Shown: positions 10,617 to 43,975 of the stretch, in pieces
How positions within the stretch are numbered: position 1 is the first letter of the stretch
Layout of the letters: each line of letters opens with the position of its first letter
From: Spirochaetota bacterium
GTDB taxonomy: Bacteria > Spirochaetota > B62-G9 > DRHN01
DNA: 48,091 nucleotides
Direction of reading: 5' to 3'
Assembly (NCBI GenBank): GCA_016934265.1
Contig: JAFGTF010000116.1
Span: 1 to 48,091, forward strand
The notes under the pieces: generated by a model
The model's database searches: none
What the model saw: only the letters and a program-made list of their open reading frames with translations
What the model was told of the DNA's origin: nothing
Translations under genes and position numbers: made by a program

Positions 10617-11675
10617 TTGCGGACCATCATCATTATCGCTGCAGTCGTCGTGATAATCGGTATAGTGGTATGGCGTTTCAGAGGTGGGAAAAATAAGTTT
10701 CCCTGGTACGAGTTCTTCTCGAGAGGCAGGAAGGAGGGGTTCTCTTACAAGGAGATACGCTTCCTGAAGCGGATTGCGGTCTCCAACAAGCTCACCAAAC
10801 CGCAGTCCATCTTCTGGTCGACCAGACAGCTCGACCGCTGCCTTCGTCCCGCGATACGGCAGATCAATGCTGATGAGAACATGAGCCCGGAAGCGAAGCA
10901 GGCGATGATCAACAAGCTGCTCGAGCTCAGGAAGAAGGCGGAGTTCAATCTTCCGAAATATCAGAAGCGTATTCGCGATACCAATGCGATGCTGCCGAGA
11001 CAGAAACTCATCATTCGGGAATCGACCTACGGAACGTTCGTAAGCTGGGTGGTCGAGGTGAACCGCCGTTATATCGTTATCACCCAGCCGTCCGGTCAGG
11101 CGGGGTGGCAGGCGCTGAAATGGACGGGAATGAAGATCAACATATACTTCTGGAGAATGGATGATGCGGGCTACTCTTTCGAGACAAAGGTTCAGCAGCA
11201 GATAAGCCATGAAGAATACCCGCTCATGTACCTGGAACACTCCAACAAGCTCAAGCGGGTCCAGAAGAGAGAGAGCGTGCGGGTGGATACGAACCTAAGG
11301 GCGAGCTTTTATCCCGTCGTCTATTCCACCGCGGACGGCGGCAACAAGCCCTTCATATCGAAGAAGAAGCACGTGGGAAAGATCATCGACCTCTCGGAAA
11401 CGGGATGTGCCATGATTGCGGGCAAGGGGATGAAGCTGAATGCGAGGATGAAGCTCGATTTCTTCATTACTGAACACAAGCGGATCGTCACGCTCGGCTC
11501 GGTAGTAAACGTCTCGGATACGAAGGACGAGCGGGTTAAGAAATACCATATCGTGTTCCTGAAGATAGGGCCCATTTCAAAGAACAACATACTGCTCTAC
11601 GTGTACAATATTTTCGGCGAGCGCGAGCAACGCGAAGAGAAGAAGAAGCAAGTTGTTACCCCTGTGAAGCAGTAA
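10617..11675 (+). CDS. Membrane-anchored PilZ-domain protein (YcgR/PlzA-like c-di-GMP receptor)
   Basis: This 352-residue protein has an N-terminal membrane segment (about residues 3-19) followed by a cytoplasmic part. Residues about 125-205 look like a PilZN/YcgR-type domain. The PilZ domain at about 212-330 carries the c-di-GMP binding motif R218-E-S-V-R222 and D258-L-S-E-T-G263 (DxSxxG), so it should bind the second messenger. In other bacteria such proteins slow or modify flagellar rotation, and spirochaetal PlzA proteins affect motility; a similar role is inferred. The start is TTG 10617, with GAGGT about 7 bases before. The tail is basic (EREQREEKKKQ). It is probably monocistronic or leads into the acyltransferase gene 118 bases downstream. 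Confidence 0.88.
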   Translation: MRTIIIIAAVVVIIGIVVWRFRGGKNKFPWYEFFSRGRKEGFSYKEIRFLKRIAVSNKLTKPQSIFWSTRQLDRCLRPAIRQINADENMSPEAKQAMINKLLELRKKAEFNLPKYQKRIRDTNAMLPRQKLIIRESTYGTFVSWVVEVNRRYIVITQPSGQAGWQALKWTGMKINIYFWRMDDAGYSFETKVQQQISHEEYPLMYLEHSNKLKRVQKRESVRVDTNLRASFYPVVYSTADGGNKPFISKKKHVGKIIDLSETGCAMIAGKGMKLNARMKLDFFITEHKRIVTLGSVVNVSDTKDERVKKYHIVFLKIGPISKNNILLYVYNIFGEREQREEKKKQVVTPVKQ

Positions 11676-31849: not shown

Positions 31850-33442
31850 TCAGCGCTTGATTCTGCGCTTGTTCCGTTCGTCCTTCATAAGCTTGTAGGA
31901 GATCGAATCGACGAGGGCAAGCCAGCTCGCCTCCATGAGGTTCTGTGACACTCCCACGGTGCCCCACTCATCGATCCCGTCGGTGCTCTGGATGAGAACG
32001 CGGACCAACGCTTCCGTCGCTTTCTTTGTATCTAAAACCCTGACCTTGTAATCCACGAGTCGCATCTCTCCCAGGGTGGGGTAGAATATGGTGAGCGCCT
32101 TGCGCAGCGCCCTGTCGAGCGCGTTTACCGGTCCTACCCCTTCGCTTGCGGTGAGCTCCTTTTCACCGTCCACCGTAACTTTTATCGTCGCTTCCGAGAG
32201 CACGTGCTCTTTCGGACCCCGCTTTTCCGTGATCACCCGGAATCCCTCGAGAGAGAAATAATCGTCGAACGTGCCGATCAGTTTCTTGATCAGTATTTCG
32301 AACGAGCTTTCCGCCCCCTCGAACTGGTATCCCATATGCTCGAGCTCCTTCAGCCGTTTCAGCACCTCCTTGGTCTTTTTAGAGCGGTCTTCGAGGGCCG
32401 AAAGGTCGATACCGAACTCGGACGCCTTGTACAGTATGCTGCTTTTGCCCGAGAGGTCGGAAACGAGCACGCGCCTCATGTTTCCGACTGTTTCCGGTTC
32501 TATGTGCTCGTAGGTCTTCGGGTTCTTCATGACGGCGTTCACGTGTATACCGCCTTTGTGTGCGAATGCGCTCTCCCCGACAAAGGGCATGTTCATGACA
32601 TGCGCCATATTGGCGAGCTCGGACACGTACCTCGACAGCTCGGTGAGGTGGCGGATATGGTCATCGGGCACGCACGGCATCCCGAGTTTCAGATGCAGAA
32701 TGGGAATCACGGAACAGAGGTTGGCGTTTCCGCATCGTTCCCCGTAGCCGTTTATCGATCCCTGTACGTGCACCGCGCCGCACATTACCGCTTCTATGGA
32801 ATTGGCTACCCCGCAGTCGGAATCGTTGTGGGCGTGAATCCCCAAGGGCCTTGTGATGCGTTTTTTGACTTCCGCGAAGATCGGCGCCAGCTCGTGTGTG
32901 AGGGTCCCGCCGTTGGTATCGGCGAGCACGATGATGTCGGCCCCCCCGCGCTGTGCGGCCTCGATGGTCTGAAGCGCGTATGACGGGTTCTCCTTATAGC
33001 CGTCGAAGAAGTGTTCCGCGTCGTAGATGACCTCCTTACCCCTTTTTTTCAGATAACGGCAGGAGTCTTCGATGATATCGAGGTTCTGCTCGGGGGAGAT
33101 TCTGAGGGCGTCTTTAACGTGGAGGTCCCAGGACTTTCCGAAAATCGTGGCGACCGGGGAGCCGGTCTCTATGATTGCGTTGAGATTCGGGTCCTTGTCG
33201 GCGCTGTTTTCAGGTCTTCTCGTGCTCCCGAATGCGGCTATCTTCGCCGTCTTCAGTCGTACGTCATTGATCAGCTTGAAGAATTCGATATCCTTCGGGT
33301 TCGAACCCGGCCATCCGCCCTCTATGTAGTGGACTCCGAACTCGTCGAGCGCCTCGGCGACCCTCACCTTGTCTTTGCTGGACAGCGTCACCCCCTCTCC
33401 CTGGCTTCCGTCCCGCAACGTAGTGTCGAATATCTGTATCAT
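31850..33442 (-). CDS. cimA: (R)-citramalate synthase
   Basis: This 530-residue enzyme condenses pyruvate with acetyl-CoA to (R)-citramalate, the first step of the threonine-independent isoleucine route. It has the DRE-TIM metallolyase motifs [14 protein letters not shown] at residues 5-18, the [13 protein letters not shown] block characteristic of CimA and not Leu[14 protein letters not shown] with the metal-binding His pair, and ERCGNANL. The C-terminal regulatory domain is intact. AGGAG lies 8 bases before ATG 33442. It is the last gene of the ilv/leu operon, 110 bases after leuA. The product feeds leuCDB-encoded enzymes not in this window, then the IlvB/N-C-D enzymes. Confidence 0.95.
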
Positions 33443-33552: not shown

Positions 33553-35061
33553 TTACCCTCCGTTGTAGTAAATCCTGTTGATGGCGTTAATCAGCGCGTG
33601 AACGCTCGCCTCGATGACATCGGTGGCAACCCCATATCCCCTGAAGATCCGATTGTCTTTTTCGACGGTTATCGTCACGCCGCCCATTGCGTCCTTGCCG
33701 CGGGTCACTGCGTTAATCGAGTAGCTCGAGAGCTTAACCGGCGTATCCGTGATCTTCTCGATCGCCCGATACACGGCGTCTACGGGACCGTCGCCAGTCG
33801 CGGCTTCCTGGATGACCGCATTACCGCTTTTGAGCCTCACCGTTGCGGTCGGTATCACGTTGTTTCCGGTGATGACGCTGAAATAATCGAGGGTGAACGT
33901 CTCGGGGAGTATGCTCAGCTCCTCTTCGATGAGCGCGATGAGGTCCTCGTTGAAGACCTCTTTTTTCTTATCAGCGATCTCGGTGAATTTCGTGAATACC
34001 TTGTCGAGGTCCTTCGACGAGACTACGTACCCGAGCTCCTTGAGCCGCTCCTTCAGCCCGTGCTTGCCCGAATGACGGCCGAGCACGAGGGTGGACTGCC
34101 GGCGTCCGATGGACTGCGGAGTCATGATCTCGTAGGTCATCTTGTGCTTTATTATGCCGTCCTGGTGGATGCCCGCCTCGTGCGCAAAGGCATTCTCCCC
34201 GACTATCGCCTTGTTGGGCTGAACCGACATACCGGTATAGCTCACGATGGTCTTCGAGAGATGATAAATCTGCTCCGTCTTAATCCTGGTCTTGAAATTG
34301 AAACAGTCGGCACGGGTCTTGAGGGACATCACGACCTCTTCGAATGAGGCGTTACCCGCCCTTTCGCCGATACCGTTCACCGAGACCTCGGCCTGACGGG
34401 CGCCCGCCTTCAAAGCCTCGAGCGTGTTTGCGGTGGCAAGACCGAGATCGTTGTGGCAGTGGACGCTGATAACGGTCTTATCGATCCCGGGTACCTCCTT
34501 CTTGAGGTACCGTATCAGCGCCGCATACTCCTCGGGAACGGTGTATCCCACGGTGTCGGGGACATTGAGGATTGTGGCTCCCGCCTCTATTACCGCGGTG
34601 TATATCTCCTTTAGGTATTCCCGGTCGCTTCTCGTGGCGTCCTCGGCGGAGAACTCCACCTCGTTCGTCAGCGATCTCGCGTAGCGTACCGCATCCACGG
34701 CGAGTTTCAATACCTCTTTTTTCGACTTTTTCAGCTTGTAAGTGAGATGGATGTCGGATGTCGCGATGAAGGTGTGTATGCGCTTCTTCGGGGCCGGCGC
34801 AAGCGCCTCGTAGCAGCGGTCGATGTCCTTTTCGAGCGTCCGTGCGAGACCAGCGATCGTCGACCGGCGGACCGTTTCAGCGACTCGCCGGACCCCTTCG
34901 AACTGTTTCGGAGAAGAGATTGGAAACCCCGCCTCGATCACGTCGACCCCGATGGCGGTGAGGAGCTTCGCCACCTCGACCTTCTGCTCGATCGACATGC
35001 TCGCACCGGGAGACTGCTCTCCGTCTCTCAGCGTGGTATCGAAGATGAATATCTTATCCAT
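33553..35061 (-). CDS. leuA: 2-isopropylmalate synthase
   Basis: This 502-residue enzyme condenses 2-oxoisovalerate with acetyl-CoA, the first committed step of leucine synthesis. [16 protein letters not shown] at the N-terminus, VIEAGFPISSP, HCHNDLGLATANT, NGIGERAGNASFEEVV and HSGKHGLKERL are all family motifs; the C-terminal leucine-binding domain is present. ATG 35061 is supported by GGGAGG 8 bases upstream and makes the start overlap the last 8 bases of ilvN, so translation is coupled. Confidence 0.96.
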   Translation of the reverse strand: MDKIFIFDTTLRDGEQSPGASMSIEQKVEVAKLLTAIGVDVIEAGFPISSPKQFEGVRRVAETVRRSTIAGLARTLEKDIDRCYEALAPAPKKRIHTFIATSDIHLTYKLKKSKKEVLKLAVDAVRYARSLTNEVEFSAEDATRSDREYLKEIYTAVIEAGATILNVPDTVGYTVPEEYAALIRYLKKEVPGIDKTVISVHCHNDLGLATANTLEALKAGARQAEVSVNGIGERAGNASFEEVVMSLKTRADCFNFKTRIKTEQIYHLSKTIVSYTGMSVQPNKAIVGENAFAHEAGIHQDGIIKHKMTYEIMTPQSIGRRQSTLVLGRHSGKHGLKERLKELGYVVSSKDLDKVFTKFTEIADKKKEVFNEDLIALIEEELSILPETFTLDYFSVITGNNVIPTATVRLKSGNAVIQEAATGDGPVDAVYRAIEKITDTPVKLSSYSINAVTRGKDAMGGVTITVEKDNRIFRGYGVATDVIEASVHALINAINRIYYNGG

Positions 35062-35563
35062 TTGTCGTGCCTCCCTTTTTCCCAGCACCCCTGCTGATCG
35101 AGACCCTGCCGGTCCTGGCCATTTCGAGAATGCCGTACGGCTGCAGTATTTTGATAAGAGCCTCGATTTTGTCGGCGATTCCGGTTACCTCGAGCGTCAA
35201 GGATTCGTGGCTGAGGTCCACTACCTTTCCTTTGAAGATCTCGGCGATCTGAAAGACCTCCTGCCGTTTCTGGGCGGGCGCCTTTACCTTGATGAGAATG
35301 ATCTCGCGATGAACCGCGGTGGCGCCGGACAGGTCTATCACCTTGACGACGTCTATGAACTTGTTGAGCTGCTTTTTCACCTGATCGAGTATCTTTTCGT
35401 CTCCCTTTACCACGATGGTCATACGCGAGTAGTCGGGGTTTTCGGTCTCTCCGACGGACAGCTCCGAGATGTTGAAGCCCCTTCCGCTGAAGAGTCCCGC
35501 TATGTGCGCCAGGACCCCGCTCTTGTTTTCAACGGTCACCGCCAGGGTGTATTCCTTTTCCAT
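35054..35563 (-). CDS. ilvN: Acetolactate synthase small (regulatory) subunit
   Basis: This 169-residue regulatory subunit contains an N-terminal ACT domain (TLAVTVENKSGVLAHIAGLFSGRGFNIS) that binds valine in known members, and a C-terminal domain (REIILIKVKAPAQKRQEV..., YGILEMARTGRVSISRG). The length is standard for the IlvH type. AGGAG lies 6 bases before ATG 35563. It lies 33 bases downstream of ilvB and overlaps leuA by 8 bases. Confidence 0.95.
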   Translation of the reverse strand: MEKEYTLAVTVENKSGVLAHIAGLFSGRGFNISELSVGETENPDYSRMTIVVKGDEKILDQVKKQLNKFIDVVKVIDLSGATAVHREIILIKVKAPAQKRQEVFQIAEIFKGKVVDLSHESLTLEVTGIADKIEALIKILQPYGILEMARTGRVSISRGAGKKGGTTNG

Positions 35564-35596: not shown

Positions 35597-37348
35597 TCAT
35601 GCGAGCAGGAACGCATCCGCATCTTCCTTGCTCGAGATCATTTTATTGATCGGCGCACCGGCGGGGACCATGGGCGTCACGTTCTCCTCGGGATTAATGA
35701 GAAAGTCCATAAGAACCGTTTTGTCCTGTGTGACGGCTTCCCGGAGGGCGTCGTCGACGTCCGCTTTCTTGTGTATTCGGATTCCCACCGCCCCGTACGC
35801 GTCCGCGAGCTTGACGAAGTCCGGGACGTAGGGCGGACAGTGGGGCCCCGGCTCGCAGCAGATATCCGGGCAGCGTTTGTCCCGTCGCAGGCAGGTCGCG
35901 GAGTAACGCCGGTCGAAAAAGTACTCCTGCCACTGCCGAACCATGCCGAGGTAGCCGTTGTTGAGGATAACGACCTTTATAGGGAGCGCGCGTTGGGCTA
36001 TAGTCGCCATCTCCTGTATGTTCATCTGAATACTGCCGTCGCCCGCGATGTCTACCACCAGTGCGTCGGGGTTTGCGAGCTGCGCGCCGATGGCTGCGGG
36101 GAGGCCGTACCCCATGGTCCCCAGGCCGCCGGAGGTTATCAGCCTGCGCGGTTTGTTGAACTTGTAGAACTGGGCCGCCCACATCTGGTTCTGGCCCACC
36201 TCGGTCGTGATAATGGCGTCTCCCTTCGTGATCTCGTAGAGACGATCGATGACGTACTGGGGCCTGAGCACCTCGTCGTTGCTGTAAGTCAGCGGGTGCT
36301 CCTCTTTCCATCGTGCTATCTCGGAAAGCCAGTCGGAGATGGCGAGCTTTTGGGCCTGCTTGTTCATCTCCCTGAGCGTCTGTTTCGCGTCGCCGACGAT
36401 CGGAATGTCTATTATCACGTTCTTGCTGATTGAAGCGGGGTCGATGTCGACGTGGATGAACTTTGCGTGGGGCGCGAAGAGCTCGAGCTTTCCTGTGACC
36501 CTGTCGTCGAACCGCGAGCCGAGCGCGATGAGCAGGTCGCACCTGTCGGTGGCGTAGTTCGCGGTCTTCGTCCCGTGCATCCCGAGCATTCCGAGGAATT
36601 CCGGCTCACTGGCCGGGAATGCGCCGAGGCCCATGAGCGTGAGCACGACCGGGATACCGGTTGTCTTCGCGAACTTTTTGAGCTCGTCCGATGCGTTGGA
36701 GGTTATGATGCCTCCCCCGGCGTAGATGAGGGGCTTCTTGGCCTCTTTTATCGCATCCATTACCTTTTTGATCTGGCGCGCATGTCCCTGCTCCGGAATG
36801 CTGTATCCCGGTATGCTGACCTTGTCCGGGTAGTCGAATTCGATCTGGGCGGTGAGCATATCCTTCGGTACGTCGACGAGGACCGGTCCACATCGTCCTG
36901 TGGTCGCGAGATAGAACGCTTTTTTCAGGACTAGCGGCAGCTCCCCCGGCTCCCTTATTAAAAAGTTGTGCTTCGTTACCGGTCTCGTGATTCCCGTCGT
37001 ATCAGCCTCCTGAAAGGCGTCGTTGCCGATCATCGCGGTGGGAACCTGCCCTGTGATGGCGACCAGGGGCACCGAGTCCATGTATGCGGTGGCGAGGCCG
37101 GTCACGATGTTCGTAGCACCGGGACCGGAGGTCACGATACAGACGCCCGGTTTCCCGCAAGACCTCGCGTACCCGTCAGCGGCGTGTATCGCACCCTGTT
37201 CGTGCTTTGTTACCACGAGGTTGAGCTTCTTGTCACCGTATATCGCGTCGAAGAGGGGAATGACGACGCCCCCCGGGATACCGAAAAGGGTCGTAACCTT
37301 TTCTTTGTGCAGTGCTTCGACGATTGCCTTCGCGCCGGTCATCCTCAT
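35597..37348 (-). CDS. ilvB: Acetolactate synthase large (catalytic) subunit
   Basis: This 583-residue TPP-dependent enzyme joins two pyruvates to acetolactate, or pyruvate and 2-oxobutyrate to acetohydroxybutyrate. Catalytic Glu is E50 in KHEQGA; the TPP site is GDGSI at 436-440 with NN at 463-464. The FAD and quinone-like binding domain in the middle is normal. Between RYSATC and [11 protein letters not shown] (residues 481-511) there is a Cys-rich insert with C486, C493, C497, C498 and C504, absent from most family members. AAGGAG lies 6 bases before ATG 37348. It follows ilvD by 22 bases. Confidence 0.96.
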
Positions 37349-37370: not shown

Positions 37371-39041
37371 TTAAACTGGAAAAACCGCTCCCTGGGCGGC
37401 AGATGAAACGAGCATTGAATACCTGTACATATACCCTTTATCGATATTGGGCTTGCGTGGAGCCTGTTTTTTCAGGCGTTCGAGCCTGTCTTTAAGCTCT
37501 TTTTCTGCGACCTTCAGTGTGATCTTCTTTTTCTTTATATCTATCAGTATGCGGTCGCCCTCGAGTACCAGGGCGATGGGCCCTTGTGCGGCCGCTTCGG
37601 GTGAAACGTGCCCGATGGCCGCCCCCCTCGTGGCGCCGGAGAACCTGCCGTCGGTGATAAGCGCAACCGAGTCGTCGAGCCCCATGCCGGCGATGGAGGA
37701 GGTCGGGGTGAGCATCTCGCGCATTCCCGGGCCCCCTTTCGGTCCCTCGTACCTGATAACCACGATGTCTCCCCGCTGAATGACGCCGTTTAGTATGGCG
37801 TCGACCGCCTCCTCCTCGGACTCGAACACGCGTGCGGGGCCTTCGTGTACCATCATACCAGGCAGTACCGCGGCGCTCTTTACTACGCACCCGTCCGGCG
37901 CGAGGTTTCCCTTGAGCACGGTCAGCCCTCCCGTGGCGTGGCGCGGATTTGCCGCCGGGGCGATTATTTCGCTGTCTTTGACGGTTGCATTCTCTATGAG
38001 CTCGCCCACGGTCCTTGCCGTTACGGTCATGAGCCCCGTGTTTATGTGTCCGCTGCCGGAGAGCTCCTTCATGACGGCAGGTATGCCGCCTGCGCGATGG
38101 AGGTCCTCCATGAAATGCGGGCCCGACGGGGATAGGGAGCAGAGGTGCGGGACCGTTTCACTGATACGGTCGAAGTCGTCGAGGCCGATTTTGATCTCTC
38201 CGTAGTGTGCGATCGCAGGGATGTGGAGCGCGGTGTTGGTGGAGCCTCCTATCGCCATGTCGACGGCGATGGCGTTGAGAAACGCCTCGCGGGTCATGAT
38301 CTGTTGCGGCAGAATATTCTTTTCGACGAGCTTCATGACCGCCGATCCGGCGTTTTTAGCAAGCCTCATCCGCTCTGCGTGGACTGCGGGAACCGTTCCG
38401 TTTCCGGGAAGCCCCATGCCGAGGGCCTCGGTGAGACAATTCATGCTGTTCGCCGTGAAGAGGCCGGCACAGCTGCCCATTCCGGGACACGCGCACTCCT
38501 CGATGACTTTGAGCGCCTCTTCGTCTATCTTTCCCGACCGTATTTCGCCCACGGCTTCAAAGGCCTTGTCGACGCCGATCTTCACACCATTGTATTCGCC
38601 TGCGAGCATCGGCCCCCCCGATATTACCACCGCCGGTATGTTGAGCCGGATCGCGGCAATGAGCATTCCGGGAACGATCTTGTCGCAGTTCGTGACGAGC
38701 ACGAGGCCGTCGAAGGGCATCGCCTTTGCAACCGTCTCGATGGAATCGGCGATGAGCTCTCTGCTCCCGAGGGAATATTTCATGCCCGTGTGGTCCATTG
38801 CTATTCCGTCGCAAACGCCTATCGTGCCGAATTCGAGGGGCGTCCCACCCTCCATCCTAACACCGGCCTTCACCGCTTCGGTGATCGTGTGCAGGTGTAT
38901 ATGGCCCGGGATTATTTCGTTCGCCGAGTTCGCGATGCCGATGATGGGGCGGTCGATCTCCCCCTTCGTCAGTCCGAGTGCGTACATCAGACTGCGGTGC
39001 GGAGCTCTCTGTGATCCTTTTTTCATAAGGTCGCTGCGCAT
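37371..39041 (-). CDS. ilvD: Dihydroxy-acid dehydratase
   Basis: This 556-residue Fe-S enzyme dehydrates 2,3-dihydroxy-isovalerate and -methylvalerate to the corresponding 2-oxo acids in valine, leucine and isoleucine synthesis. Conserved Cys residues occur in [16 protein letters not shown] and [11 protein letters not shown], the cluster ligands of the family. GGGAGG four bases before ATG 39041 fixes the start. It is the first structural gene after the attenuator and so the first one to be switched by it. Confidence 0.97.
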
Positions 39042-39085
39042 GGTACCTCCCGTATGTAAGATTTTACCGATGATGTTAAAATAGT

Positions 39086-39114
39086 AAAAAAAAACCCGCT
39101 GCAGGCAGCGGGTT
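39086..39114 (-). terminator. Attenuator terminator of the ilv-leu operon
   Basis: On the minus strand AACCCGCTG pairs with CAGCGGGTT around CCTG, followed by a run of nine T (seven beyond the stem). It lies between the leader peptide stop and ilvD. The 5' half, CCGCTGCC (39111-39104), can pair instead with GGCGGCGG (39138-39131) just after the leader stop: eight pairs including one G-U. That pairing would destroy the terminator. GGCGGCGG can also pair with CCGCCGC inside the leader frame (39200-39194). These are the classic 1:2, 2:3 and 3:4 alternatives of amino acid attenuation. Confidence 0.92.
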
Positions 39115-39138
39115 ATCGTCTTAGCTTGTTCCGCCGCC

Positions 39139-39216
39139 CTATGGCATTAAAAGAAGGAGTACAATAATAAGGCTGATAAGGCTTACAATCCTTGCGGCGG
39201 TATTTCCAACCAGCAC
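39139..39216 (-). CDS. Ilv-leu leader peptide (attenuation)
   Basis: A 25-codon frame starts at GTG 39216 behind AGGAGGAG and stops at TAG 39141-39139. Codons 10-23 read [14 protein letters not shown], so 12 of these 14 are isoleucine, valine or leucine. The peptide itself probably has no function. When charged Ile, Val or Leu tRNA is scarce, the ribosome stalls in this run, covers the first pairing segment and lets the antiterminator form, so the operon is transcribed. With enough amino acids the ribosome reaches the stop, covers the second segment, and the terminator forms. The sequence is seen; the mechanism is known from enteric ilv and leu operons and is inferred here. Confidence 0.9.
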
Positions 39217-39247
39217 TCTTTCTCCTCCTCTTAGGATGATTGAAGTA

Positions 39248-39275
39248 AGAATACAATCTTATCTCCGTTTGTCAA
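39248..39275 (-). promoter_or_regulatory. Promoter of the ilv-leu operon
   Basis: On the minus strand TTGACA (39275-39270) is followed by a 16-base spacer and TATTCT (39253-39248). Transcription would start near 39241, about 25 bases before the leader peptide start. The -35 box is perfect and the -10 box matches 4 of 6. Confidence 0.6.
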
Positions 39276-39334
39276 GTAAAAACGTGCGTGACCGGTATAA
39301 AAATTTGGTGTACATTAATGTCCTGGAGAAGGAG

Positions 39335-40264
39335 ATGGGTCGTGAATTCGATGTGCTCGGGATCGGGACGTACTGCATCGATTACCTCTGCTTCGTATCG
39401 CGATACCCGAAGGAGGATGAGAAGCTCGAAGCGGAGCAGATCGAGATACAGGGCGGCGGAAACATAGCGTCCGCATGTGTCGCGGCGTCGAGACTCGGAG
39501 GCAGCGTCTGCTACCACGGTACGGTGGGAAAAGACGGGCTCACGGAACATATCATAAAAGGCCTGAAGAACGAGGGAATCGATACGGCGCATGTGAAGAT
39601 CAAAAAGGGGCGTAATCCTCTCGCTTTCGTCGTAGTAAGCAAAGAAAGGGCGTCGAGGACGATTCTCTATATGAAAAATGAGGTGCCCTTGTTCCGTGCA
39701 GGAGATGTCGATCCGGCCTTGATACTGGCGAGCCGGGTTCTCCTCGTCGATTTCTACCACGAGGAAGCTTCGCGTGCCGCGTCCGTGATCGCGCATGAAG
39801 CGGGTATTCCCGTTGTCGTCGACGCCGAAAAGGACTCGCCTCTCGCAGGCGAAATCCTATCGAACGCCACCGATATAGTCGCCTCAGAAAAGTATGCGCT
39901 GCGGGCGGTAGGCGAGGACTCCTGCGAAGATAAATGGGAGCTTTTAGAGCGGTTGGCGGAAAAGCTCAAAAGGCCTTCGATCACGATTACGCTGGGAAAA
40001 AGGGGTTCGGTCTGTCTCGCTGAGAACGGGCGAAAGAAGATAGAACAGAAGGCATTCCGTGTGAACGTGGTAGATACGACGGGTGCGGGTGACGTGTTCC
40101 ATGGGGTATACGCGCTGTATCTCGCACGCGGATACCGGCAGGAGGAAATACTCCGGCTCGCCACAGCCTGCGCGGCGATGAAGTGCAGAGAGATGGGCGG
40201 GCGCAAAGGAATACCGGCGCAAGACGAGCTTTTACGGTTTATTAGGGAGAACGACGAGCGATGA
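39335..40264 (+). CDS. PfkB-family carbohydrate kinase
   Basis: This 309-residue sugar kinase of the ribokinase/PfkB fold has the N-terminal GGGNIASACVAASRLGG substrate-binding block and the C-terminal DTTGAGDVFHGVYAL block with the catalytic Asp of GAGD. The phosphorylated sugar or nucleoside cannot be named from sequence. ATG 39335 is preferred because GGAG lies 6 bases upstream and the product then begins FDVLGIGTYCIDYL as in relatives; the upstream extension to 39236 overlaps the ilv promoter. Its stop overlaps the start of the next gene (ATGA), so the two are cotranslated. Confidence 0.9.
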   Translation: MGREFDVLGIGTYCIDYLCFVSRYPKEDEKLEAEQIEIQGGGNIASACVAASRLGGSVCYHGTVGKDGLTEHIIKGLKNEGIDTAHVKIKKGRNPLAFVVVSKERASRTILYMKNEVPLFRAGDVDPALILASRVLLVDFYHEEASRAASVIAHEAGIPVVVDAEKDSPLAGEILSNATDIVASEKYALRAVGEDSCEDKWELLERLAEKLKRPSITITLGKRGSVCLAENGRKKIEQKAFRVNVVDTTGAGDVFHGVYALYLARGYRQEEILRLATACAAMKCREMGGRKGIPAQDELLRFIRENDER

Positions 40265-40771: not shown

Positions 40772-41887
40772 TTAACTAACTCCTGATATTTCTTTAAATG
40801 GCAATACCTCGCAATTAAAATTAGACATTGTTTTAGACATTTCGTCCAATAAAACCCGTAAATCTTCGTCAAGATAATGGCCGTACTCGTTTAACGTAGT
40901 CTTAATATCGCGGTGACGCATCAGCTTCTGGACCGCTTTGATATTCGCATTTTGCTTTATCATTATGTAACCGAACGTATGACGTAGACAATGAGGGGTG
41001 AAATCCCTCGGTAGTTTGTACTTCTTCCTGAGTTTAGGCCAGTGATAGGACTCCCAGCCGTCATACGATTTCGCCCCTGTTCTACCGGGGAAGAGATACA
41101 CTGAATCGGGCCGTGCCTTAATCTGTCTGTTACAGAACCAAAAAACCTCATTGCGAGCAGGCAAAAAGCCGTAAGACTCCTCTGTCTTGGTATAGTTCTC
41201 GATCCTGCCTTTATACTGTCGTTTAATGATGTTCACTCCCCGCTGTTCGAAGTCTATGTCTGATTTCAAGAGCGCGAATGTTTCCCCGATCCGTAACCCT
41301 GCAAGCCCTTGCAGCGCGAATATCGCCGCGTTCTCGATGTCCATGTCGAGTATCATTTCCATTAATCGCTCTTCCTGTATGACGGGCCGCTCTTTCTGCT
41401 CTCTTTTCGGGATACTGAACGGAGGATATCGGGAGATGATCTCCTCATTCTTCGCGTAATTCAGTATTCGCTTGAGGTCTTCGTGTAATGCCCTCTGCAT
41501 GGCATTTTCATAATTGCGTTTAACTTCGTTGCTATATTGTGTGATATCAGATTTCTGCAAATCGCATAGCCGTACCTTTCCGAGCAGGGAAGGGGAAAGG
41601 TGTTTGTGTAATCGGCGCTCTACCTCTCTGTACGTGCTCCACCGTACGTTTCCGAGCTCCGGATCTGCGTACTCATGCAGGTAGTATTCTACGAGCTCGG
41701 TAACAGTCATCTTACTGTCCGCTCTGTAGAGCCGTTTCAAGACTTCCGAGCGTTTCTTGATACACTCGTCCTCGCATTTGTCCCTTGTGGTATATTTGCC
41801 GGATACGGGAATAGTCTTACCTGTGCGGTCGTCCTTAACACGTCCGTGGTAGTAACCGCCGGACCGGTAAACAGTATAACCCTTCAT
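40772..41887 (-). CDS. Tyrosine-type site-specific integrase
   Basis: This 371-residue phage-type integrase has an N-terminal arm-binding-like domain (residues 1-50: GGYYHGRVKDDRTGKTIPVSGKYTT), a core-binding SAM-like domain (about 60-155), and a catalytic domain with R199 (GLRIGE), K234, H299 and R302 (HCLRH), H325 (MRHRD) and nucleophile Y335 (NEYGH). All are present, so it should be active. The upstream excisionase-like gene overlaps it by 4 bases. A near-consensus promoter lies at 42185-42213. The gene ends next to a chromosomal gene, the usual position for an integrase at one edge of an island. Confidence 0.94.
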   Translation of the reverse strand: MKGYTVYRSGGYYHGRVKDDRTGKTIPVSGKYTTRDKCEDECIKKRSEVLKRLYRADSKMTVTELVEYYLHEYADPELGNVRWSTYREVERRLHKHLSPSLLGKVRLCDLQKSDITQYSNEVKRNYENAMQRALHEDLKRILNYAKNEEIISRYPPFSIPKREQKERPVIQEERLMEMILDMDIENAAIFALQGLAGLRIGETFALLKSDIDFEQRGVNIIKRQYKGRIENYTKTEESYGFLPARNEVFWFCNRQIKARPDSVYLFPGRTGAKSYDGWESYHWPKLRKKYKLPRDFTPHCLRHTFGYIMIKQNANIKAVQKLMRHRDIKTTLNEYGHYLDEDLRVLLDEMSKTMSNFNCEVLPFKEISGVS

Positions 41888-42916: not shown

Positions 42917-42998
42917 AAATGTTGACAACTATTTTACATCATGTTAGTGTTGTTTATATTAAACATAATAAACAATATGTTCAGGGGAGTCAACATTT
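42917..42998. promoter_or_regulatory. Face-to-face promoters within a 10-bp inverted repeat
   Basis: AAATGTTGAC (42917-42926) and its exact reverse complement (42989-42998) enclose 62 bases. Each arm carries a -35 box pointing inward. Plus strand: TTGACA (42922-42927), 17 bases, TAGTGT (42945-42950), toward the recombinase. Minus strand: TTGACT (42993-42988), 17 bases, TATTAT (42970-42965), toward the ribbon-helix-helix gene. ATGTT half-sites recur inside. The arrangement suggests operators for the ribbon-helix-helix protein or, less likely, an invertible segment. Confidence 0.6.
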
Positions 42999-43015
42999 AT
43001 TTCAAGGGGGAAATC

Positions 43016-43975
43016 ATGAAGGAAATCGTCAAACGACAGGACGTACAGAACTTCAGTATTGACTGGAAACAGTACCTCGAAAACTTTCTACTTTCACAGA
43101 GCGGATTATCACAGAAGACCGTACAGGCCTACAGGGGAGGGGTATCACGGTTTATTTGCTTCATGCAGGAGCAGGGTATTGACCGGCCCTTACCTGATGA
43201 TATCCACGTGTACATAAGGATGCTGCAAGATAAAGCCTATAAACTGCACACCATTAATCTGTATGCGGTCTCTATCAAGAAGTTTTTCAAGTATCTATCA
43301 AAACCATACGGGACGGTCGGCGCTGCCTCTGTCAAGATTTACGAAGACATCTACAGTATGGCACGACCCAAGATAACCAGACCGGAGAAGGGGAAGCACT
43401 ACCGGAATGTACCTACCGAAACGATGGTTAAAAAGCTCAGAGGATACCTCAGATTCAAGCAGGATCGTAAGAGTGTGCGTGATCTGCTCATGATAGACCT
43501 CGGCCTGTATGCGGGTCTACGGGTAAATGAGATCGCAAATATTCACTGTGACGACATCGTGAAAGACGAAGACGTGTACCGTTTGAGGCTGCTCAGGAAA
43601 GGACACAGAAGCAAAACCGAGAGCGTGTTTGTGTCCAGCGACATAATCAATAGAATGCAGGCTTATATAAGCAAGTACAAAATAGAGGGGCACATCTTCA
43701 TGGACATATCGCACGTCCAGCAGGGGAGGAGCGATCATCTCTGCAGCGGCACGGTCTCAACCATCATCACTAGGTATATACGAAAGCTCAAGATTAAGGA
43801 CAATATTACGGCTCACAGTCTCAGGCACTATGCCGGGACACGGTTCTACCGGGAGACGCATGATATCTACGCTACACAGCAGTTTCTATCGCATAGGGAC
43901 ATCGAAACTACAAAAGTGTACATGCACCTTGATAAAGCTTATGAGCAGAAACGCATGGTGTTAAATCCAATATGA
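43016..43975 (+). CDS. Tyrosine recombinase (XerC/D-like)
   Basis: This 319-residue recombinase has an N-terminal SAM-like core-binding domain (WKQYLENFLLSQSGLSQKTVQAYRGG...) and a catalytic domain with R169 (GLRVNEI), a basic residue near 195-200, H267 and R270 (HSLRH), H293 (LSHRDIE) and Y302 (VYMHLD). It lacks the arm-binding domain of the other integrase and so resembles XerC/D or transposon resolvase-type enzymes. ATG 43016 follows AAGGGGG by 6 bases. It is divergent from a ribbon-helix-helix gene and 11 bases upstream of a small gene of unknown function. Confidence 0.92.
   Translation: MKEIVKRQDVQNFSIDWKQYLENFLLSQSGLSQKTVQAYRGGVSRFICFMQEQGIDRPLPDDIHVYIRMLQDKAYKLHTINLYAVSIKKFFKYLSKPYGTVGAASVKIYEDIYSMARPKITRPEKGKHYRNVPTETMVKKLRGYLRFKQDRKSVRDLLMIDLGLYAGLRVNEIANIHCDDIVKDEDVYRLRLLRKGHRSKTESVFVSSDIINRMQAYISKYKIEGHIFMDISHVQQGRSDHLCSGTVSTIITRYIRKLKIKDNITAHSLRHYAGTRFYRETHDIYATQQFLSHRDIETTKVYMHLDKAYEQKRMVLNPI

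Follow-up and report, generated by a model that had tools for sequence, protein, structure and literature searches.

A conserved putative Ile/Val/Leu leader attenuator upstream of the ilvD-ilvB-ilvN-leuA-cimA operon in an order of Spirochaetota

Ribosome-mediated attenuation operates at the ilvGMEDA and ilvBN operons of E. coli (cited in PMC10272879), and a branched-chain amino acid (BCAA) leader with a terminator, supported by experimental evidence, precedes the ilvBNC operon of Corynebacterium (ilvB-II motif; PMC10272879, PMC11857589). In 2010, Naville and Gautheret described leader-peptide systems as known only in Proteobacteria and Actinobacteria, with Firmicutes added (PMC2965389). The Leptospira ilvB motif was reported in 2021, together with the Veillonella ilvD motif, as a weak riboswitch candidate (PMC8632094), and was reinterpreted in 2023 as a BCAA leader attenuator (PMC10272879). 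The element described here is not the first attenuator proposed for a spirochaete, the earlier proposal concerning a leader before another gene, and the sequence-only reading of this locus, which knew of no described case in spirochaetes, has to be corrected in this respect. A literature search that covered only a minority of subscription journals found no paper on this ilvD leader and none on a trp leader from a spirochaete.

The element lies upstream of ilvD on the minus strand of the window, the whole stretch of 48,091 nucleotides that was analysed. It resembles the E. coli ilvGMEDA (ilvL) and ilvBN attenuators in its multivalent Ile/Val/Leu leader, in opposing an antiterminator to an intrinsic terminator and in preceding a branched-chain operon; it differs from them in matching no Rfam family, in a segment 2 that abuts the stop codon, in the operon ilvD-ilvB-ilvN-leuA-cimA, and in a segment 1 that precedes the control codons and does not form reliably. 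With the Leptospira ilvB motif (WRC-14-1) it shares a spirochaete host, a BCAA-rich leader, a branched-chain gene and predicted attenuation (PMC8632094, PMC10272879), a likeness drawn by description only; that motif precedes ilvB rather than ilvD, carries a Val run, is Thr-rich and has seven representatives in one genus. The Corynebacterium ilvBNC leader likewise serves an ilv operon, but in another phylum, with another first gene and another sequence. None of the Rfam leader and riboswitch families scored above its gathering score, the best being Phe_leader with 21.3 bits against a threshold of 55. From its sequence, we consider the element very probably a ribosome-mediated transcription attenuator that would sense charged Ile-, Val- and Leu-tRNA and control ilvD-ilvB-ilvN-leuA-cimA. 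Its parts and the operon are as follows.

39248-39275, minus strand: sigma70-like promoter TTGACA-N16-TATTCT, 10 of 12 positions matching, assigned by consensus match only
39222-39229, minus strand: leader Shine-Dalgarno sequence AGGAGGAG, strong, read directly
39139-39216, minus strand: leader open reading frame of 25 codons, GTG at 39216 to TAG at 39139, its character kept in six relatives
39194-39200, minus strand: segment 1, CCGCCGC, codons 6-8 (Thr-Ala-Ala), pairing partner of segment 2 (codon shuffle p = 0.011)
39148-39189, minus strand: control codons 10-23, 12 of 14 Ile/Val/Leu, read directly
39131-39139, minus strand: segment 2, GGGCGGCGG, at the stop codon and directly after it, from sequence and pairing scores
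39103-39111, minus strand: segment 3, CCGCTGCCT, common to the antiterminator (2:3) and the terminator (3:4), from pairing and energies
39084-39114, minus strand: intrinsic terminator, stem AACCCGCTG-CCTG-CAGCGGGTT followed by a T run, kept in seven of seven genomes
37371-39041, minus strand: ilvD, dihydroxy-acid dehydratase, first gene (TIGR00110)
35597-37348, minus strand: ilvB, acetolactate synthase large subunit (TIGR00118)
35054-35563, minus strand: ilvN, acetolactate synthase small subunit (TIGR00119)
33553-35061, minus strand: leuA, 2-isopropylmalate synthase (TIGR00973)
31850-33442, minus strand: cimA, citramalate synthase, last gene (TIGR00977)
From about 39320-39335, plus strand: PfkB-type sugar kinase, divergent neighbour

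Read directly on the minus strand, the -35 hexamer TTGACA (39275-39270) is separated by 16 nt from the -10 hexamer TATTCT (39253-39248), the two control codons that are not Ile/Val/Leu are Ser, and GGCGGCGG (39138-39131) stands directly 3' of the leader stop TAG. The terminator stem AACCCGCTG/CAGCGGGTT (39114-39093) comprises nine pairs, its T run reaches 39084, and two overlapping terminator-like sites were counted, where shuffled sequences lead one to expect 0.6. Rereading this strand bore out the sequence-only reading in the letters, counts and coordinates of the promoter, the Shine-Dalgarno sequence and the GTG-started 25-codon frame, in its count of 12 Ile/Val/Leu codons within codons 10-23, and in placing GGCGGCGG after the stop and a T-ending stem behind it. 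The five genes that it had placed behind the element were named by NCBIfam models scoring above their cut-offs, and they stay behind the leader elsewhere: their order is kept in six of six relatives, the contig of G004 stopping within cimA. A second ilvD in the same genome (contig C120, 19284-20933), 59% identical to the first, has no leader attenuator in its upstream region. Near the divergent neighbour of the operon, and not far from each other, lie two tyrosine recombinase genes (40772-41887, minus strand; 42941-43975, plus strand), which possibly mark the end of a mobile element.

Conservation was assessed upstream of ilvD in the window's genome, four relatives of the same family and two from a second family of the order; the IlvD proteins of these relatives are 71-72% identical to that of the window. 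All seven ilvD operons sampled from the order, spanning two families and seven genera, have the attenuator anatomy: a run of Ile/Leu/Val codons at the leader end, a stop codon, a GC-rich segment 2 at most a few bases from that stop, with the sequence GGCGGCGG or GGCAGCGG or a variant of these, and a CCCGCT...CAGCGGGTTTTTTT terminator, which by sequence lies in every case between the leader frame and the first structural gene. The leaders have between 23 and 38 codons, according to which start is taken; some relatives have no clear leader Shine-Dalgarno sequence, and both the N-terminal half and the identity of Ile, Leu or Val at each site vary. Over the last 18 codons of the seven leaders, 82 of 126 codons encode Ile, Leu or Val, and codon position 2 is the best conserved (0.79, as against 0.59 and 0.50 for positions 1 and 3), the pattern expected when selection acts on the residue class of the encoded peptide. 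The other 13 ilvD loci sampled from the phylum include none with such a leader and terminator. A covariance model (R1) derived from these seven leaders and searched against 393 genomes of the phylum matched exactly the seven operons, with E-values of 1e-12 to 1e-16, no match elsewhere being better than 2e-3; weak matches beyond the order (E 0.002-0.01) were taken as chance. FlaA, known from spirochaetes as the sheath protein of their periplasmic flagella, is present in all seven operon-carrying genomes of the order and absent from 14 control genomes; a spirochaete host is regarded as very likely.

The antiterminator of the window is a helix of nine pairs between GGGCGGCGG and CCGCUGCCU (2:3), which overlaps the 5' arm of the terminator and is mutually exclusive with 3:4; the sequence-only reading had recognised a real pairing here, but counted eight pairs, one of them G-U. 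The energies of the two structures are -15.7 kcal/mol (2:3) and -14.7 kcal/mol (3:4) in the window and are nearly equal in six of the seven genomes, the antiterminator being far stronger in G004. Segment 2 forms seven to 10 pairs with the terminator 5' arm in each genome, and the summed 2:3 score over the seven was reached by none of 1000 shuffles, although G003 taken alone has a weak helix (p = 0.067 against shuffles). The sequence-only reading had made its case depend on conservation of the leader frame and of the alternative pairing in relatives, and all seven genomes keep the leader, the post-stop segment and the terminator; the compensatory changes that it had also asked for are absent from 2:3, which is 91% paired and shows only G-C/G-U and A-U/G-U alternations. 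The claim made for this helix is thus one of conservation and not of covariation.

The protector helix (1:2) between segment 1 and segment 2, put forward in the same reading, can be drawn in the window with seven pairs (codon-shuffle p = 0.011), but it is not the favoured fold of the window's naked leader: both the minimum free energy (MFE) and the centroid structure place the Shine-Dalgarno region AAGAGGAGGAG in a helix with the Leu codons CUCCUUCUUUU. Across the genomes, 1:2 beats codon shuffles in sum, G003 being an exception, and forms in three of the seven naked leaders, the window's being among the four in which it is not favoured; as a brake acting when the leader is untranslated, it is plausible for certain relatives only. 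The folding energy of the whole leader is unremarkable (z = -1.6) and was dropped as evidence, which leaves the anatomy of the element and its conservation to carry the argument.

The effect of a ribosome on this switch was modelled by folding the RNA with segment 3 made and segment 4 not yet made, masking the bases under the ribosome codon by codon with three footprint sizes; these are fixed masks at equilibrium and not a kinetic model. With the standard footprint, a ribosome at the stop codon is predicted to abolish 2:3 pairing in all seven genomes, whereas at least five pairs of 2:3 are kept at 12 of 12 Ile/Leu/Val codons in the window. The fraction of these codons at which 2:3 is kept is 0.92-1.00 for the window across the three footprints and 0.50-1.00 for the relatives, certain mid-run positions in G031 and G003 not favouring 2:3. 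The three footprints agree broadly, although with the smallest one four relatives retain one or two pairs when the ribosome is at the stop. The masked folds predict the logic of classic attenuation, an outcome that partly follows from segment 2 adjoining the stop. With amino acids plentiful, the ribosome would traverse the leader to the stop codon and cover segment 2, leaving segment 3 free for segment 4, and transcription would stop near 39084. When Ile-, Val- or Leu-tRNA is short, the ribosome would be delayed within codons 10-23, and the uncovered segment 2 would take segment 3 before segment 4 exists, allowing RNA polymerase to continue into ilvD. That the leader is translated, that transcripts end there in the cell and that amino acids alter the outcome is what we infer from these features, and the analysis supports the attenuation interpretation of the sequence-only reading. 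At ribosome-free equilibrium 2:3 forms as well, so shut-off would require active translation and a poorly initiated leader would read through.

Because the window's Leu codons can sequester the leader Shine-Dalgarno sequence, as in the MFE and centroid folds that pair AAGAGGAGGAG with CUCCUUCUUUU, initiation and elongation might together set the switch. Such translation coupling is compatible with ribosome-mediated attenuation, but the Leu codons are made about 60 nt after the Shine-Dalgarno sequence, by which time a ribosome is normally loaded, and several relatives have no strong Shine-Dalgarno sequence, so we give it a small chance. A more distant alternative dispenses with codon sensing: the terminator would act constitutively or answer to a protein or, in the manner of a riboswitch, to a small ligand, and the short frame would be a gene for a hydrophobic micropeptide. 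Ligand-controlled leaders do precede ilv genes elsewhere, namely ppGpp riboswitches (cited in PMC8632094, PMC10272879), and a membrane micropeptide would likewise be expected to be rich in Ile, Leu and Val. Several observations speak against this account: a stop codon that adjoins segment 2 in seven of seven genomes, the exchange of Ile, Val and Leu between relatives with mainly codon position 2 kept, the lack of any Rfam family at threshold, and a freedom of variation in leader length and in the N-terminal half that would be expected neither of an aptamer nor of a functional protein. We regard it as very unlikely.

That a random Ile/Leu/Val-rich frame merely lies next to an ordinary terminator deserves mention since short hydrophobic frames are frequent in AT-rich DNA and the whole-leader fold reaches a z-score of only -1.6. 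Conservation in seven of seven genomes together with a matched segment 2 and terminator is counted as decisive against it; the terminator is, moreover, always between leader and gene on the strand of the gene, and a leader-plus-terminator scan of ilvB upstream regions returned 0/60 in shuffled sequence and 0/60 on the opposite strand. Coincidence is accordingly barely credible, and the ilv leader is a real, conserved regulatory element, ordinary in kind.

The window's genome also has a Trp leader attenuator upstream of trpE (contig C19, minus strand, at about 11469-11569; L156, L161), its peptide ending ...YWWWFRR-stop before tandem terminators, and the element recurs in five relatives (G001, G002, G003, G004 and G042; L152-L155 and L162 among the loci). 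In the window's genome (G000) and in G001, G003, G004 and G042 the leader follows the pattern ...(Y/F)WWWF(R/W)x-stop, followed by a CCGGAACC-like segment; the terminator reads GGCCGCAGGTTCTGG...CCAG.TTCTGCGGCC with a T-rich tail and is often followed by a second one. The presence of this independent leader in the same genomes suggests that the lineage uses attenuation. A spirochaete of another family (G197, contig C40, L163) has a CWWW leader beside trpE with tandem terminators, and its R2 match was kept for this reason; weak R2 matches in G352, G080, G220, G026 and G319, with neither a WW leader nor an adjoining trpE, were rejected. A scan of the regions upstream of the ketol-acid reductoisomerase gene and of hisG in the same genomes revealed no leader with a terminator, hisG perhaps not being first in its operon.

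Upstream of ilvB, an Ile/Leu/Val leader followed by a terminator occurs at eight of 60 sampled spirochaete loci, against none in either control. Six of these leaders, from other spirochaete families (L193, L194, L195, L197, L198 and L199, in G006, G030, G073, G055, G019 and G049, respectively), share a terminator of GCCATCC or GGCTATCC type and appear to form a single family; a relationship between the GCCATCC-type leaders and the Leptospira ilvB motif is possible. Among the eight, the locus in G103 (L170) is doubtful, since it resembles the last part of a gene for a membrane protein.

Outside the phylum, Desulfobacterales carry an Ile/Val/Leu leader and a CCGTTATC-type terminator directly before ilvD (L006, L013, L016, L027, L030, L034, L050, L053, L062, L068). 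These leaders differ from the window's in their ending (e.g. VEVII..S.RRGS) and terminator core. In a quick, midpoint-rooted IlvD tree, from which an ORF filter excluded four of the six relatives, the window's clade groups mostly with others from the same phylum (SH-aLRT 95, 11 rows) and away from the leader-carrying Desulfobacterales. The separate clade of the latter indicates that their ilvD leader is probably an independent element, and horizontal transfer from Desulfobacterales is unsupported by the tree. In Veillonella sp. R32 (L063), a leader frame MLGLVVVIISLLIIIDIIVIIS... lies 289-136 bases before ilvD, with a terminator later.

The mechanism itself is textbook ribosome-mediated attenuation, so the surprise is modest; it is the host that is unusual. 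The weak riboswitch candidate described before ilvD in Veillonella (PMC8632094) may instead be a leader attenuator. For the spirochaetes, we consider it likely that several amino-acid operons are run by ribosome-mediated attenuation through at least three separate elements, repeatedly invented or recruited: an ilvD type in the window's order, an ilvB type in the sampled families f3, f16 and f29, perhaps identical to the Leptospira motif, and a trpE type that the window's order shares with a single genome from a different family. The known range of leader-peptide attenuation, which takes in Proteobacteria, Actinobacteria and some Firmicutes, would thereby grow to include a spirochaete clade, in both its Ile/Val/Leu and its Trp pathways.
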